Positions 45,886-52,048 of a DNA stretch of 64,000 nucleotides are shown one piece after another. This stretch comes from Psychrobacillus sp. NEAU-3TGS (GTDB lineage Bacteria; Bacillota; Bacilli; Bacillales_A; Planococcaceae), in contig NZ_JAPNOZ010000012.1 in assembly GCF_029955155.1 (NCBI RefSeq), forward strand, positions 1,061,753 through 1,125,752, written 5' to 3'. The notes under the pieces are model-generated. The model saw only the letters and a list, made by a program, of their open reading frames with translations, did no database searches and had not been told where the DNA came from. Positions within the stretch are counted from its first letter, which is position 1. Each line of letters opens with the position of its first letter. The position numbers and the translations under genes are program-made.

Positions 45886-45914
45886 GAAAAAAACCTTCTT
45901 TTTACGGAAGGTTA
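45886..45914 (-). terminator. Terminator of mecA
   Basis: AACCTTC and GAAGGTT arms with a T7 run on the minus strand; the hairpin overlaps the mecA stop. Confidence 0.75.
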
Positions 45915-46577
45915 AAAATGCCTGTTTAGCTCTTGGAATACGTCATTTACAATGATTTCTTTTCCATATTCTTGAATCATATGAATAGTAGTTTTTGTAC
46001 TACTTGCAAATTCAGAAATAACGCTTAGTGTATTTAAAACAGTTTCAAATTCTGTTGTTTCCGAATTAAAAATTAAATGTAAGTGATACTTTTCTTCATA
46101 ATGATATAAGGATGTTTGGAAATCTACTTTATCCATTTTTTTTGATAGAACTAGTAAATCATCAAAGTTCTCAAACACGAATGTGTACTCTGAAGATATT
46201 TCTTCCCCATCATCCATGTAATGCGAAAACTCATCAAATTCGTGAGTTCCTAAAGAACTAGAGACACCATTTTTGAAAATTTTATTTGACAGGTCATCCA
46301 TTTCAAAATCATCTGATCGTTCCTCATGTTTTCCTATTTCCGTTCGAGTGACAATCACTTCCAAGCCTTTTTCCATCGCATGAACTTGTATCCATAACGG
46401 GCCATCTAATTCTTCAAAATGGTCATCATCATGAACCTCATCCATCATCTCCCAAAAAAGCTGCTCGCTCTTATCTTTGTTAAACCATATTTCATCTCGG
46501 CTGAAGCCTCTTTCTTCAATGTCGATGTATGAAATGTATACTTTGAAAGTGTTGTCATTGATACGTTCGATATCCAT
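45912..46577 (-). CDS. mecA: Adaptor protein MecA
   Basis: 221 residues: an N-terminal substrate-binding domain (MDIERINDNTFKVYISYIDIEERGFSRDEIW), an acidic linker, and a C-terminal ClpC-binding domain (SEYTFVFENFDDLLVLSKKM). MecA targets ComK, Spx and others to ClpCP. It lies between spx and coiA, keeping the B. subtilis order. Confidence 0.92.
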   Translation of the reverse strand: MDIERINDNTFKVYISYIDIEERGFSRDEIWFNKDKSEQLFWEMMDEVHDDDHFEELDGPLWIQVHAMEKGLEVIVTRTEIGKHEERSDDFEMDDLSNKIFKNGVSSSLGTHEFDEFSHYMDDGEEISSEYTFVFENFDDLLVLSKKMDKVDFQTSLYHYEEKYHLHLIFNSETTEFETVLNTLSVISEFASSTKTTIHMIQEYGKEIIVNDVFQELNRHF

Positions 46578-46730
46578 TTAACACATCTCCTTTCGCTTCC
46601 TACCGTCTCAATCATGTAGTGTCTACTACTATTGTATGTTGTTTGTGAAAAAAAGAAAAGGATTCCAACTTTTCTTTTCAAATAATTAATCACAAATGAA
46701 TTGTAAGAAAATTTATGCTTTAATGCAAGC

Positions 46731-46777
46731 AAAAAAAAGCTGACTATTTTCAAAAGTTCTTTGAAAATAATCAGCTG
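46731..46777 (-). terminator. Terminator of spx
   Basis: AGCTGATTATTTTC and GAAAATAGTCAGCT (minus strand) are followed by T8. Confidence 0.85.
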
Positions 46778-46785
46778 ATTAACTT

Positions 46786-47181
46786 TTAGTTCACAAGCCT
46801 TTGTGCTTCAAGTAACTGATATGCACGAACTTTTCTAGGTAAAAATCTACGAATTTCGTCTTCGTTATAGCCAACTTGTAGACGTTTTTCATCTAATATT
46901 ATTGGTCTACGAAGTAGTCCAGGATGTTCTTGAATTAGCTCATATAAACGTTGTAAAGGAAGGCTTTCCACATCTACATTTAGCTTCTGGAATATTTTAG
47001 AACGAGTTGAAATAATTTCATCTGTTCCATCCTCTGTCATTCGTAAAATTTCTTTTATTTCGCTTATTGTAAGTGGTTCAGAAAAAATATTACGCTCCAT
47101 ATATGGAATATCATGTTCTTCTAACCATGCTTTTGCTTTTCTACATGAAGTACAACTTGGTGAGGTAAATAACGTAACCAT
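46786..47181 (-). CDS. spx: Transcriptional regulator Spx
   Basis: 131 residues of the ArsC-like fold: [19 protein letters not shown] with the C10-C13 redox pair, the RxxP-type [14 protein letters not shown] region and [24 protein letters not shown]. Spx binds RNA polymerase alpha and switches on disulfide-stress genes. Two ATGs are adjacent (47184 and 47181); the second gives the canonical C10/C13 numbering. Confidence 0.95.
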
Positions 47182-47184
47182 CAT

Positions 47185-47566
47185 TTAAAAACACTTCCTT
47201 TCAATTGTTAGTTGTGTTATATGAAGTAGTTTATAATTAATTTAATGTAATTCTTTACTTTTTCAGTATACACCAAATTATAGTCATTTAAAATATGTTT
47301 ATAAGAAAAATTTACCCTCTAAATGAAGCTGTCACAAATTCGTTGAATATATAAGCTATACTTACATTCTAGAAAGAATTTTTATAGATGCTTTAATTAT
47401 ACCCTTCTTTTTTCTGTTATAAACATTATAATGAAATTTTTTTACATTCTCATTTAGAAGAAGGCTAATGAAAATAACTGTTACACTAACTAATACGTTT
47501 TTCATGAAATAAAGTTTCATAAAAATAAAAAAGATAGATTTTTTTTATAATCCTATCTTTTCTTAT
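47185..47566. other. spx upstream region, AT-rich, non-coding
   Basis: The most plausible spx promoter is TATACT (47265-47270, minus strand) with a weak TTTTAA 17 bases upstream (47288-47293). Several further AT-rich promoter-like stretches lie beyond it, as expected for a multi-promoter spx region, but none matches well enough to call. The terminator of the next gene takes the last 45 bases. No ORF supported. Confidence 0.4.
47521..47562 (-). terminator. Terminator of the glycoside-hydrolase-like gene
   Basis: AAGATAG and CTATCTT arms, then a T run on the minus strand. Confidence 0.7.
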
Positions 47567-48775
47567 TTAAGGTGTATAATCAACGCCAGGAGAATACTTA
47601 TTTCCTGCATTCCAAAGTAGGAATTCCTTAATACCTGCTTCATTTAATGCTTTTATTTGTTCTTCTACTTCCTCTTTACCATATGTTTGATAGTTGCCAG
47701 CACCTAGGTACGAAGCAGTAAAATCTTGAAGCCATGGCCTTGATACTGGTGGGTTTTCTAATTCTGCTAATTTTGCATTTTCTACTTTTGCATATTCTTG
47801 TACTAAGCGATAAGGCTCTAAATCCGGTTTTGCTATACCAAAATAAGGTGTCCAATGACTTGGATAAATCATGGAAGAAATAACGTCTACATTTTCGGAT
47901 ATCTTAGAGAAGTTTTGTCCAATTCCAGGCGCTTCCGGTAATGTAGCAGAGTATCCGAAAATATCTACTGATACTTGTACACCATAAGGTTTTAGCTTTT
48001 CTTTTGCATATGCAACAAAATCGGTAACCGCTGTAACTCTTCGTTGAACGGGGTCTTCTTGAGATTTTTCATATTTTCCCATGGAGTACTTTAATACATC
48101 TTCTCTATTTTCAAATCCCTCAGGAAATCGCACATAGTCAAATTGGATTTCTTTAAAGCCCATCTTCGCGGCTTCTATAGCAATTTCGACATTATAATCC
48201 CATACTTCTTGTAGAAAAGGGTTTACGAATGATTCCCCTCTTCCATTTTTCCAGACGGAAGATCCTTCCACAAACGACCATTCGGGCTTTCTTTCTGCTA
48301 GCTCCGTATCTTTAAAAACAACAACACGTGCTATTGGATATATTTCTTTCTCTTCCAATGTTTCTAGCATAGTTCGTGGATTTTTTATGTATGGCTTACC
48401 AATCTTATATTTCGTAAGCGATGATTCTTCATTGGGAATATAGGTTAAGTTACCAAAGTCGTCTTTAATATCAATTACCATCGCATTTAGCTCTGTCGCA
48501 TCTAATAAATTGACTAAATCCGCAAATCTGGAGCCACCTGCTGAATGTCCCGTTACATATACTCCTCTCACCGCATCAGGATAGTTAAATGTTAGTCCGG
48601 AGTCGTATATGAATAGTTTGGATGTTGTAACGACCTTCTCATCAATCGGTTTTAAACTAAACTCTTTTGTGGAAAAATCTTTTGCGAATAGTTTAGATTC
48701 CGCAAATACAGTTGTAGGTAATAGTACAGCAGCTGCTACACTTAATGAGGCTAGTATTTTAATAGGCTTCTTCAT
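47567..48775 (-). CDS. Secreted putative glycoside hydrolase (DUF4015 family)
   Basis: 402 residues. A signal peptide (MKKPIKILASLSVAAAVLLPTTVFA, cut after VFA) is followed by a TIM-barrel domain of the DUF4015 type: AVRGVYVTGHSAGG, ELNAMVIDIKDDFGNLTY, MGFKEIQFDYVRFPEG with likely catalytic acids, VSVDIFGYSA and a terminal LLWNAGNKYSPGVDY. Substrate unknown, probably a polysaccharide or cell wall. Monocistronic. Confidence 0.85.
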   Translation of the reverse strand: MKKPIKILASLSVAAAVLLPTTVFAESKLFAKDFSTKEFSLKPIDEKVVTTSKLFIYDSGLTFNYPDAVRGVYVTGHSAGGSRFADLVNLLDATELNAMVIDIKDDFGNLTYIPNEESSLTKYKIGKPYIKNPRTMLETLEEKEIYPIARVVVFKDTELAERKPEWSFVEGSSVWKNGRGESFVNPFLQEVWDYNVEIAIEAAKMGFKEIQFDYVRFPEGFENREDVLKYSMGKYEKSQEDPVQRRVTAVTDFVAYAKEKLKPYGVQVSVDIFGYSATLPEAPGIGQNFSKISENVDVISSMIYPSHWTPYFGIAKPDLEPYRLVQEYAKVENAKLAELENPPVSRPWLQDFTASYLGAGNYQTYGKEEVEEQIKALNEAGIKEFLLWNAGNKYSPGVDYTP

Positions 48776-49004
48776 AAAATTCTCCTTTCTTTCCTTAGTG
48801 TTCCTTTATTCTAACAATACTAAACCATCAATGAAAGAGAAATAGTGCTTATAATGTTACGAACACTTCTCCTAGGTTGTGCTTACTTAATAGAGATAAT
48901 ACGTCGTAAAAAGTTCTATAAGAGAACCACTTTCCATCACCTGTCTATTAGTAAATACCTTAACTACAAGAGGAATAAACAATTACTATTCTTAGGTCAT
49001 ACAC

Positions 49005-49044
49005 AGAAAAACGGAGTAGCCCGTAGACCAACTCCGTTTTTCTT
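49005..49044 (-). terminator. Terminator of the rsbQ/PAS-GGDEF operon
   Basis: AGAAAAACGGAGT and ACTCCGTTTTTCT form a perfect 13-bp stem. Confidence 0.85.
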
Positions 49045-49077
49045 CTATATTTATGTTCCCCTTCACAGGCATTGATA

Positions 49078-50064
49078 TTAATCATTGTAGTGGTTAGCAT
49101 GCGTGACCTGGTTACGACCTCGTTTTTTTGAGGAATAAAGTGCCCGATCAGCTCGGGATTGAAGTGAACTTACTGTATCTCCTGTTATAAGTGTTGCAAT
49201 TCCAATACTTATGGTGACAGGTTGGTTTATCCAGCAAGCACCCTCTACACGCAACCGAATTCTTTCAGCTATTTTCTGGGCAATCGCTTGATCCGCATAA
49301 GGAAGAATCAATGCAAATTCCTCTCCACCATAACGAGCTGCAACATCTCCTTCTCTTAACTCCTCTTTCAGGATTATTCCTAATCCTTGAAGAACCTTGT
49401 CACCTGTTAAATGCCCATAGTTGTCGTTGATCTTTTTGAAATGATCCAAATCTAATAGCAATAATGAAAGGGATTGCGATTTTTTTGTAAATAAAGCGAT
49501 ATTAGAGGCTAAATCCTCTTGTAAACTTCGCCTATTCTTAAGGCCAGTCAGTCCATCGGTAGCAGCTAACTTTTCTAATTGTGCGTTTACTTCTAGTAGT
49601 TCTTTTTGCTTAAACTCCAATTCCCTTCTCAGAAGATCTAACTCGGCTATTTGCTCTCTCTTAACACGGTTGCGTGCTTCTGTCTCCTTTTTGACCGCAA
49701 GGAGGGATTGCTCATACTCGTAGCGTTTCTTTATTTGAAACAACATACAATCATTGACAATTTCACCATTTCGATTTTTGCGTATTGCATTAAGAAGGAA
49801 TGGAATATCATCATTGGTTTTCGACTTGAATGTAAGGTACATCTCCTCTACGCGTTCCTGTAGCTTAATAATAGGAAAAAAGTAAAGCTGATAAAATGAT
49901 TTGCTAGGAACCGTTAGAATGGTGTTAACGTGTTTTCCCTTCAACTCATATTGGTCATCAAAGCCAAGTAAACTAAGCAAAGTTTGATTGATTGTGCGAA
50001 TGATGCCCTCATCAGAAAGTGATAAGTAACCACATGGAGCATAATTCAATTGTTCATCTATCAA
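49078..50064 (-). CDS. PAS-GGDEF diguanylate cyclase with RsbP-type PAS sensor
   Basis: 328 residues. Residues 1-115 form a PAS domain that closely resembles the N-terminus of B. subtilis RsbP (EQLNYAPCGYLSLSDEG, TVPSKSFYQLYFFPIIKL). Residues 115-165 form a coiled coil. The GGDEF domain follows, with an active GGEEF site (246-250) and an RxxD inhibitory site (REGD, 237-240). It should make c-di-GMP under control of the PAS. The TTG start has AAGGAG 8 bases upstream, inside the end of rsbQ, 5 bases after its stop. RsbP itself carries a PP2C phosphatase in place of GGDEF. Confidence 0.9.
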   Translation of the reverse strand: MIDEQLNYAPCGYLSLSDEGIIRTINQTLLSLLGFDDQYELKGKHVNTILTVPSKSFYQLYFFPIIKLQERVEEMYLTFKSKTNDDIPFLLNAIRKNRNGEIVNDCMLFQIKKRYEYEQSLLAVKKETEARNRVKREQIAELDLLRRELEFKQKELLEVNAQLEKLAATDGLTGLKNRRSLQEDLASNIALFTKKSQSLSLLLLDLDHFKKINDNYGHLTGDKVLQGLGIILKEELREGDVAARYGGEEFALILPYADQAIAQKIAERIRLRVEGACWINQPVTISIGIATLITGDTVSSLQSRADRALYSSKKRGRNQVTHANHYND

Positions 50065-50069
50065 ATAAT

Positions 50070-50900
50070 CTACTCCTTACTAAGTGTACTCACATAGCCG
50101 ACAGTCAAATATTCTCTAATTAAACGAATGGTTTCTTCCGGATGGCTCATATGTGGACAATGCCCAGTAGCCTCCATAAAACATAACGTGTTTTTTGGCA
50201 GATGGCGATTCATGTAATTTCCTACTTCAATTGGAGCAATTACATCCTCAGAGCATTGAAGAATAAGCGATGGCACCAAAACTTTTTTCAAGTCTTCTCG
50301 GTTATCAGAAAAGAAAGTAGCAATTGCAAATTGACGAGCAACCGTCGGATCTGTTGAACAAAAGCTTTCCTCTAATTCTTTCGAAAGCTCTGGACGATCA
50401 GGATTTTTCATAATGACCTTTGAAAGATAATTTGACCAGCCGATATAATTCATCTCCATCATATCGATCAACCCTTCCAGTTCCTCTCTCTCAAATCCAC
50501 CATTATAATCAGGTTGATCATTCAGATAACGAGGCGATGGTCCTATCATGATGAGATGTTCAAATAGATTTGGCTTTTGTATAGAAGCCAACATTCCTAT
50601 GGTGCTACCAACTGAATGTCCAACAAAAGTTATTTCTTTCAAATCCAGTGCAGCACATATTTCCACTAAATCGTTTGCATATCCATAAAGATCGCTATAT
50701 TTACTAGGATCGTATGCATTATAATCAGATTTCCCTGAACCCACATAATCAAAAAGAATGATACGATAGTTTTCTTCGAAAGCAGGAGCCACTAACCTCC
50801 ACATATTTTGGTCACATCCGAAGCCCGGAGCAAACAACATTGTCCGTGTGCCTTTACCGGAAATATTTACGTTATTACGGAAAAGAACATCTTGATACAT
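50070..50900 (-). CDS. rsbQ: RsbQ-type alpha/beta hydrolase
   Basis: 276 residues matching RsbQ end to end, with the catalytic triad at exactly the RsbQ positions: Ser96 in GHSVGS, Asp219 in CSEDV and His247 in ATGHCPH. In B. subtilis RsbQ acts with the PAS domain of RsbP to sense energy stress and start the sigma-B cascade, probably by providing a small hydrophobic signal. Here it is coupled to a PAS-GGDEF protein. ATG start behind GATGGGGA. Confidence 0.9.
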
Positions 50901-51067
50901 AATGAATCCCCATCAATTCTTATAATTTATATCTATTTAATTTACAATAGTCTACAAAATAATTAGTAACTTTATTATATACTATTCTAGTTATACCAAC
51001 AATTAAAGACTGTGTTGAAGAGATTGCGGTCACTTTATAGAAATACACTAATATTTTAGTTTATACA

Positions 51068-51102
51068 TAAAAAAATCGGCCATTCTAGTATGAATGACCG
51101 AT
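51068..51102 (-). terminator. Terminator of the opp operon
   Basis: ATCGGTCATT and AATGGCCGAT (minus strand, one mismatch) are followed by T7. Confidence 0.8.
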
Positions 51103-51109
51103 AGTTATA

Positions 51110-52048
51110 TTATTTGGAACTGGAAAGAGCTCTTAATGATTCTAACTCTTTTTCAGAGCAATAAACAAAATGTCCAGGCGTTACTTCTCTCATCGCAATT
51201 TCTTCCCCATCTTGATAATTATGATTGGCAGGATCATACGATTTACGTACACGAGTGCGCTCATAATCTGGATCAGGAAGTGGAATAGCTGATAATAGAG
51301 ACTGTGTATATGGATGCATTGGATTTGCATATAATTCTTCCGCTGTAGCTAACTCGACAAGTTTACCAAAATACATTACACCAATACGGTCAGAAATGTA
51401 TTTTACCATGGACAAGTCATGTGCGATGAATAAATAAGTTAATCCTTTTTCTTCTTGTAGTTCTTTTAGTAAGTTTACAACCTGTGCTTGAATCGATACA
51501 TCAAGTGCAGAAATAGGCTCGTCCGCAATGATAAATTCAGGATTAACAGCAAGCGCTCTTGCGATTCCTAGACGCTGACGCTGTCCACCTGAGAATTCAT
51601 GTGCATAACGATCCGCATGCTCACGGTTTAACCCAACTGTTTCCAAAAGTTCTACTACCTTTTCTTTTCGTTCTTTTGGATTTTTCACAAGCCCGTGAAT
51701 ATCCAAACCTTCCGCAATAATATCCAATACTTTCATACGTGGATTTAATGATGCATATGGATCTTGGAAAATCATTTGCATTTTACGGTTGAATTCTTTT
51801 AAATCTTTTTTCGATTTCTTGTCATGTACATTTACACCATCGTAAATTACTTGACCATCAGTTGCGTCATAAAGACGGATAATTGTACGCCCTGTCGTTG
51901 ATTTACCACAACCTGACTCACCAACTAGACCTAATGTTTCCCCTTTATAAATATCAAAGCTTATATCATCTACCGCACGAACTTCATTTGGCTTACCTTG
52001 ATTGAAATATTGCTTTAAATTTTTAATTTCGAGTAATTTTTCAGCCAT
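51110..52048 (-). CDS. oppF: Oligopeptide ABC transporter ATP-binding protein OppF
   Basis: 312 residues: Walker A GESGCGKSTTGR, Q loop FQDPYASLNPR, signature [15 protein letters not shown], Walker B FIIADEPISALD and the OppF C-terminal region ending in FVYCSEKELE. Together with OppD it powers peptide import. Its start overlaps the oppD stop. Last gene of the operon. Confidence 0.93.
   Translation of the reverse strand: MAEKLLEIKNLKQYFNQGKPNEVRAVDDISFDIYKGETLGLVGESGCGKSTTGRTIIRLYDATDGQVIYDGVNVHDKKSKKDLKEFNRKMQMIFQDPYASLNPRMKVLDIIAEGLDIHGLVKNPKERKEKVVELLETVGLNREHADRYAHEFSGGQRQRLGIARALAVNPEFIIADEPISALDVSIQAQVVNLLKELQEEKGLTYLFIAHDLSMVKYISDRIGVMYFGKLVELATAEELYANPMHPYTQSLLSAIPLPDPDYERTRVRKSYDPANHNYQDGEEIAMREVTPGHFVYCSEKELESLRALSSSK

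Follow-up and report, generated by a model that had tools for sequence, protein, structure and literature searches.

Genomic context of the gene pair

The window analysed here is a stretch of 64,000 nucleotides from Psychrobacillus sp. NEAU-3TGS (Planococcaceae), and two open reading frames singled out in a preliminary description of it were confirmed on the minus strand. The upstream frame is rsbQ (50070..50900), which encodes an alpha/beta hydrolase of 276 residues with a Ser96/Asp219/His247 triad. The downstream frame (49078..50064) starts with TTG and encodes a protein of 328 residues with a PAS-helix-GGDEF layout, as judged from the reading frame, Pfam and an AlphaFold2 model. Five bases separate the rsbQ stop from the start of the PAS-GGDEF gene, exactly as previously described and as can be read from the sequence, and a putative ribosome site for the second gene, AAGGAG (50073..50078, minus strand, found by eye), lies inside the last codons of rsbQ. 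Upstream of rsbQ a promoter-like TTGTTG-17-TATAAT stretch (50974..51002, minus strand) was recognised by eye with 9 of 12 consensus bases; it is absent from the listing of our consensus scan, and the identical 29 bases occur in Psychrobacillus lasiicapitis. After the PAS-GGDEF gene there is a terminator-like hairpin with a T tail (49011..49024, minus strand), which is a consensus match only; five such hairpins were found in the region where 1.4 were expected. A sigma-B promoter before rsbQ was considered and rejected: the window contains one site with two mismatches, which 55 of 500 first-order Markov shuffles equal, and the site is absent from the P. lasiicapitis locus (L163), from L015 and from four Sporosarcina loci (L164-L167).

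In P. lasiicapitis the pair, its order, the 5-base gap, the TTG start and the neighbours are all kept. Its RsbQ is 91% identical to that of the window, and the pair likewise lies between ABC transporter genes and a homologue of the window's DUF4015 gene. The surroundings in the window (45912-52048) consist of oligopeptide transporter ATPase genes on one side of the pair and DUF4015, ArsC-family and mecA genes on the other, the ArsC-family gene being Spx-like in our own reading. Of 19 genomes of the genus, two (the window's own included) carry the PAS domain at 94% identity or more, nine carry a divergent version at no more than 40%, and eight lack it.

Domain architecture of the encoded proteins

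The hydrolase is more closely related to RsbQ than to other alpha/beta hydrolases. Its best match among solved structures is RsbQ itself (1wom, E 7.6e-120), followed by a bacterial homologue (3qvm, 3e-80) and, at about 1e-53 to 1e-42, by the D14 and KAI2 receptors of plants. The triad positions claimed for it earlier are borne out, being invariant in a 10-sequence alignment that includes the window and equally numbered in Bacillus inaquosorum RsbQ. No second RsbQ was found in the source genome, where the next hydrolase reaches at most 31 bits as compared to 638 for RsbQ.

The downstream protein comprises a PAS domain of RsbP type (residues 1-112, a boundary of our own based on alignment and model; 49729..50064, minus strand), a linking helix of 55 residues that is unbroken in the AlphaFold2 model (residues 114-168; 49561..49725, minus strand) and a GGDEF domain identified by Pfam, the model and Foldseek (residues 169-322; 49099..49560, minus strand). 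The GGDEF output with its active-site and RxxD motifs, as first described, holds up: PF00990 matches at 154 bits and both motifs were read directly. The active-site motif GGEEF (residues 246-250; 49315..49329, minus strand) occupies five columns that are invariant in 43 aligned sequences, as is appropriate for a diguanylate cyclase of the GG(D/E)EF kind. The RxxD motif, here REGD (residues 237-240; 49345..49356, minus strand), is one which we take to be the I-site; it shows the majority residues among the 43 sequences and lies outside the invariant and nearly invariant columns. A GGDEF domain thus stands where RsbP carries its C-terminal PPM phosphatase, and the protein is not an RsbP. That this domain might be of a receptor type or otherwise inactive, and so lack cyclase activity, is highly improbable given the invariant GGEEF, the presence of RxxD and a close Foldseek match to known cyclase domains, among them 3ign (rmsd 1.1; TM-score 0.93 by target length).

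Against Pfam the protein yielded no PAS model at E 0.001 and matched GGDEF only; sensory_box scored 19.4 bits, under its cut-off of 22.9. The PAS call is based instead on homologues (loci L031 and L046) that match PAS_9 above cut-off, and on the AlphaFold2 monomer. This model, built with 43 sequences, has a mean pLDDT of 92.8, falling to 72 in a block at the PAS-helix joint, and a pTM of 0.61; it consists of a PAS-like alpha/beta part to about residue 112, the single helix and then a GGDEF fold. Foldseek was discarded as independent support for the PAS fold, since its leading matches are whole-chain ones with rmsd of at least 35 and TM of about 0.47, leaving only the GGDEF supported. These matches are PAS-GGDEF-EAL and LOV-GGDEF structures and say little about the PAS.

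The length of the linking helix is nearly constant. From the motif at the end of the PAS, [EDQ][YHFLW]E, to the D-x-LT of the GGDEF domain the distance is 54 residues in 123 of the 134 rows that could be measured (144 GGDEF rows, 10 of them without one of the motifs). The other 11 spacings are 22, 36, 43 (three), 47 (two), 52 (two), 61 and 243, and among these only 47 and 61 differ by whole heptads. Furthermore, a comparison by eye shows the B. inaquosorum RsbP helix in gapless register with that of the window from EYE to KQ-x-ELLE-x-N, about 44 residues, and the two outputs diverge just past this point.

The RsbP type of the PAS domain, proposed in the preliminary description, is real. Of the nine class residues listed in the available part of Nadezhdin, Brody and Price (2011; PMC3183031), seven are identical, and trees of RsbQ and PAS join the window clade to the RsbP clade. 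With B. inaquosorum RsbP as the ruler, the window keeps C10, L13, L48, F55, Y59, E72 and P86, together with P62, and departs from RsbP at positions 53 (Gln to Lys) and 56 (Cys to Tyr). F57 and Y61 of the window correspond to the contact residues F55 and Y59, and both lie in a modelled helix at residues 52-69. The substitution F55A abolishes RsbQ-PAS contact in B. subtilis, as reported in the same part of PMC3183031. Position 55 is Phe in all 26 rows of the window group (our own grouping), and likewise in all 36 phosphatase and all 35 kinase rows; among the other family cyclases (107 rows) it is Phe in 10, Tyr in 51 and Ile in 31. At position 59, 32 of the 35 kinases have His. Within the window group of 26 rows, E72 is replaced by Ala in seven, P86 by Ser in five and C10 by Phe in five, so that some members depart from residues important in RsbP, which counts against reading the pair as an RsbQ-PAS module.

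Distribution of RsbQ-PAS loci

Using the PAS alone as query, at a threshold of E 1e-10, we searched 261 genomes of the family (the order rank gave the same 261). Matches were obtained in 132 of these genomes at 147 loci, all of which were fetched. The pairs of rsbQ with PAS-GGDEF that had been proposed for a search across the family are its prevailing form, at 126 of the 147 loci. RsbQ accompanies a PAS-phosphatase at 15 loci and a cut or broken PAS protein at four; one locus (L046) has a PAS-phosphatase without RsbQ, and another (L162) is too degenerate to read and was left unscored for RsbQ. By genome, 112 of the 132 have GGDEF only, 11 phosphatase only, four both and five other arrangements. 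RsbQ was scored as present when phmmer gave a same-strand match at 1e-3 within the stretch fetched for the locus, some 2.2 to 3.5 kb long. The RsbQ and PAS frames abut or overlap in most loci; RsbQ is short or set apart in L022 (258 residues), L025 (145), L088 (202) and L094 (227, at a contig start).

Such linkage bears on whether RsbQ and the cyclase are merely co-transcribed, with the cyclase answering only a ligand of its own PAS and RsbQ acting elsewhere. This arrangement would be in keeping with the intact PAS-phosphatase that lacks an adjoining rsbQ at L046, and our search of the open-licence literature found no interaction data on any RsbQ-cyclase pair. Nevertheless, an RsbQ match lies beside the PAS on the same strand in 145 of the 147 loci, and the window retains both F55 and Y59; we therefore regard a separate role for RsbQ as decidedly unlikely.

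A named scan was the sole source of Bacillaceae; only the best 80 of its 589 loci were kept, which biases it towards close relatives of the window. These best 80 comprise 20 phosphatases, 18 GGDEF proteins, 26 kinases identified by phmmer and nine more by eye, one class III nucleotide cyclase, four PAS proteins without output and two loci in which no PAS was seen. Five of the nine by-eye kinase labels were checked: Pfam recognised HATPase_c in L204, L200, L219 and L171 (in the next frame), and no kinase model matched in L223.

Several individual loci deserve mention. In Planktothrix paucivesiculata (L226, 1841-2938, plus strand) a PAS of RsbP type shares one protein with a class III nucleotide cyclase domain (PF00211, E 3.5e-20), an output outside the three named in the available part of PMC3183031, and the PAS gene lies upstream of rsbQ rather than downstream. 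In Paenibacillus and Cohnella, rsbQ is followed by a PAS without an output domain (L180 3818-4309, L181 3836-4309, L240 3774-4373 and L220 2669-3028), with a helical tail in three of the four by eye; in L180 and L181 the next long gene is on the opposite strand. Histidine kinases with RsbQ-PAS occur in the Gram-positive Ammoniphilus (L189, 3756-5234) and Paenibacillus turpanensis (L207, 3773-5236); the available part of PMC3183031 describes RsbQ-PAS kinases in Gram-negatives.

Sigma-B and c-di-GMP genes

The preliminary description had raised the question of whether the genome also holds a true rsbP and the sigma-B genes. An rsbU-rsbV-rsbW-sigB cluster is present on another contig, and rsbP is absent. 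NCBIfam models identify RsbW and SigB above cut-off, with RsbV named as an anti-sigma antagonist; RsbR, RsbS, RsbT, RsbU and RsbX are our probable assignments from gene order and sequence. Five PPM domains were found in the genome, two of them in the frames assigned to RsbU and RsbX and the others in frames of 396, 792 and 313 residues. No second PAS of RsbP type was detected at E up to 0.1, and hence there is no rsbP of known build. The genome has 19 GGDEF and 13 EAL matches, so c-di-GMP metabolism is present.

A different combination is seen in another genome of the family, G145. Its locus L046 (1520-2731) encodes an intact RsbP-like PAS-phosphatase with PAS and SpoIIE domains and no rsbQ alongside. 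The two homologues of RsbQ in G145 share 64% and 52% identity with that of the window, and both adjoin PAS-GGDEF genes; a TAA was flagged in the matched stretch of the second, for which a frame of 278 residues contains the whole match. The other hydrolases of G145 reach at most 37 bits, and the genome also encodes a homologue of RsbW (73%). Either RsbP of this organism acts without RsbQ, or a single RsbQ serves both sigma-B and c-di-GMP.

Phylogeny of the sensor and output domains

Trees of RsbQ plus PAS were built from 224 loci with a PAS, of which 215 were complete enough; thinning at 78% identity reduced these to 127. A careful tree used 65 hand-picked rows of these 127, and the helix and output were excluded from both. 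The phosphatase proteins form a single clade in both trees (99 and 100/99). The window falls in a clade of eight cyclases that is sister to the RsbQ-RsbP phosphatase clade (87 in the quick tree; 97/82 in the careful one), and the next branch is the Bacillota histidine kinase L189 (95; 96/94). Two further clades of Bacillota cyclases stand apart, each at 100 or 100/99 and better. Placing all Bacillota cyclases together was rejected in AU tests (p-AU 0.018), and joining the window clade to one of the two other cyclase clades was rejected marginally (p-AU 0.0415); these groups were named after the first tree had been seen, which makes the p values optimistic.

For the GGDEF domains, 63 of 65 RsbQ-linked rows (L069 and L168, cut or broken, were left out) were compared with 41 of 44 control loci, three having no domain of 130 residues. 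The controls came from five genomes, four of which gave 67 matches and loci for 30. In the quick tree all 63 linked domains group together (93). In a careful tree, from which seven controls and 28 linked rows had been removed by hand, 34 of 35 linked rows group together with none of the 34 controls inside (96/90); the remaining linked row, the cyanobacterial L198, is placed among the controls by the tree, and forcing it inside was not rejected (p-AU 0.378). Judged from these sequences, the GGDEF domains of the three Bacillota lineages share one origin. Fresh capture of an unrelated GGDEF domain by the window lineage is not supported, since the linked domains share one clade.

The two data sets place the window differently. 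RsbQ and PAS put it with RsbP (97/82), and its GGDEF domain groups with the other large clade of cyclases (23 rows, 96/94). Together with the helix sequence that phosphatase and cyclase proteins share, by eye, up to the output, this might be taken to mean that a sigma-B sensor of RsbP type was recombined with a GGDEF output, for example from another RsbQ-PAS-cyclase lineage, with the break at the end of the shared helix. However, the GGDEF data leave the RsbQ+PAS branching order unrejected (p-AU 0.271), so no recombination is needed. Moreover, equal-cost parsimony over 1000 ultrafast bootstrap trees gives GGDEF alone at the ancestor common to the window clade and RsbP in 987 (13 tied), and a recombinant origin is accordingly unlikely in our view. 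At the Bacillota ancestor GGDEF alone is obtained in 967 of the trees and is tied with kinase in 33. Both counts refer to trees rooted on one Bacteroidota row, with rows lacking an output treated as unknown; the sample is weighted towards close relatives of the window, and other phyla are represented mostly by kinases.

The phosphatase is nested among cyclase lineages and the Bacillota GGDEF domains appear to have a single origin, which by parsimony makes the phosphatase derived. The simplest account that the sequences suggest is that the sigma-B phosphatase is a derived output, which replaced a cyclase on the way to RsbP. The initial reading of the pair was thus right in kind, in that a sensor of RsbP type is coupled to a cyclase, and the direction it assumed, from sigma-B to c-di-GMP, is probably reversed. 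We consider it about an even chance that the RsbQ-RsbP pair goes back to an older diguanylate cyclase gated by RsbQ, in which the cyclase domain gave way to a PPM phosphatase while the helix in front of it was retained. The lineage of the window would then be its nearest sampled sister that keeps c-di-GMP, and in some genomes, such as G145, one RsbQ may serve both outputs.

A proposed RsbQ-gated cyclase module

The gene pair, the intact triad, the kept PAS contacts, the helix of fixed length and the intact GGDEF and I-site motifs together lead us to read the window pair as an RsbQ-PAS sensing module of two genes whose output is a diguanylate cyclase, from a lineage that kept its cyclase and is sister to RsbQ-RsbP, with a probability of roughly 0.8. 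We infer from this that c-di-GMP may be under RsbQ-dependent control by the window pair; the gating of its cyclase by contact, the sign of that effect, a ligand and the formation of dimers are likewise elements of the proposal. A small molecule would be bound, and probably cleaved, at the Ser-His-Asp site of RsbQ, which would then touch the F-alpha helix of the PAS domain. Dimerised PAS domains could alter the geometry of the long helix, and this change might move two GGDEF domains into or out of an active dimer and so set the rate of c-di-GMP synthesis, on which the I-site would give feedback. Should c-di-GMP have been the first output of the module, the RsbQ ligand would be better sought among cues of the switch between motile and sessile life than in energy stress alone. 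In organisms with RsbQ and a cyclase and without rsbP, as here, RsbQ signalling would be readable as c-di-GMP, free of sigma-B background.

Comparison with known systems

In the available part of PMC3183031, RsbQ-PAS is presented as a two-gene sensing module whose outputs are phosphatase, kinase or diguanylate cyclase. Forty-five RsbQ-PAS pairs are given there, some with cyclases, and a coiled coil of at least 21 residues links PAS to output in 36 of the 45. The exchange of domains, taken as new in the preliminary description, therefore belongs to a class of cyclase coupling published in 2011. The window resembles this class in its adjacent hydrolase gene, N-terminal PAS of RsbP type, helical link, GGDEF domain and class residues, and as far as that part of the paper goes the only differences are those of organism and lineage. 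The main text of PMC3183031 contains none of the words Planococc-, Lysinibacillus, Paenibacillus and sphaericus, nor any in "ancest", and in the available part we saw no statement on the order of output changes. No published test of RsbQ control over a cyclase or over c-di-GMP was found in the open-licence literature, which includes few subscription journals.

A well-known relative is RsbQ-RsbP of B. subtilis, the energy branch of the sigma-B response, which shares the RsbQ triad and the PAS contact residues with the window. Its output is a PPM phosphatase acting on RsbV, whereas that of the window is a GGDEF domain; the need for the triad and for direct RsbQ-PAS contact is known from this system only. 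An exchangeable coiled-coil toolkit, with citation of the 2011 pairs, is proposed in the available part of a more recent study (eLife 2025; PMC12143880), and a shared helix with a change of output just after it fits that toolkit. The system described in that part of the study is similar in that a sigma-B type sensor and a partner protein drive a cyclase via a helical linker, but both the sensor domain and the partner protein differ from those of the window. The RsbQ-PAS-cyclase class has thus been known since 2011; added here are its distribution and probable history, with the direction of its evolution and the orphan RsbP of G145 as new leads.
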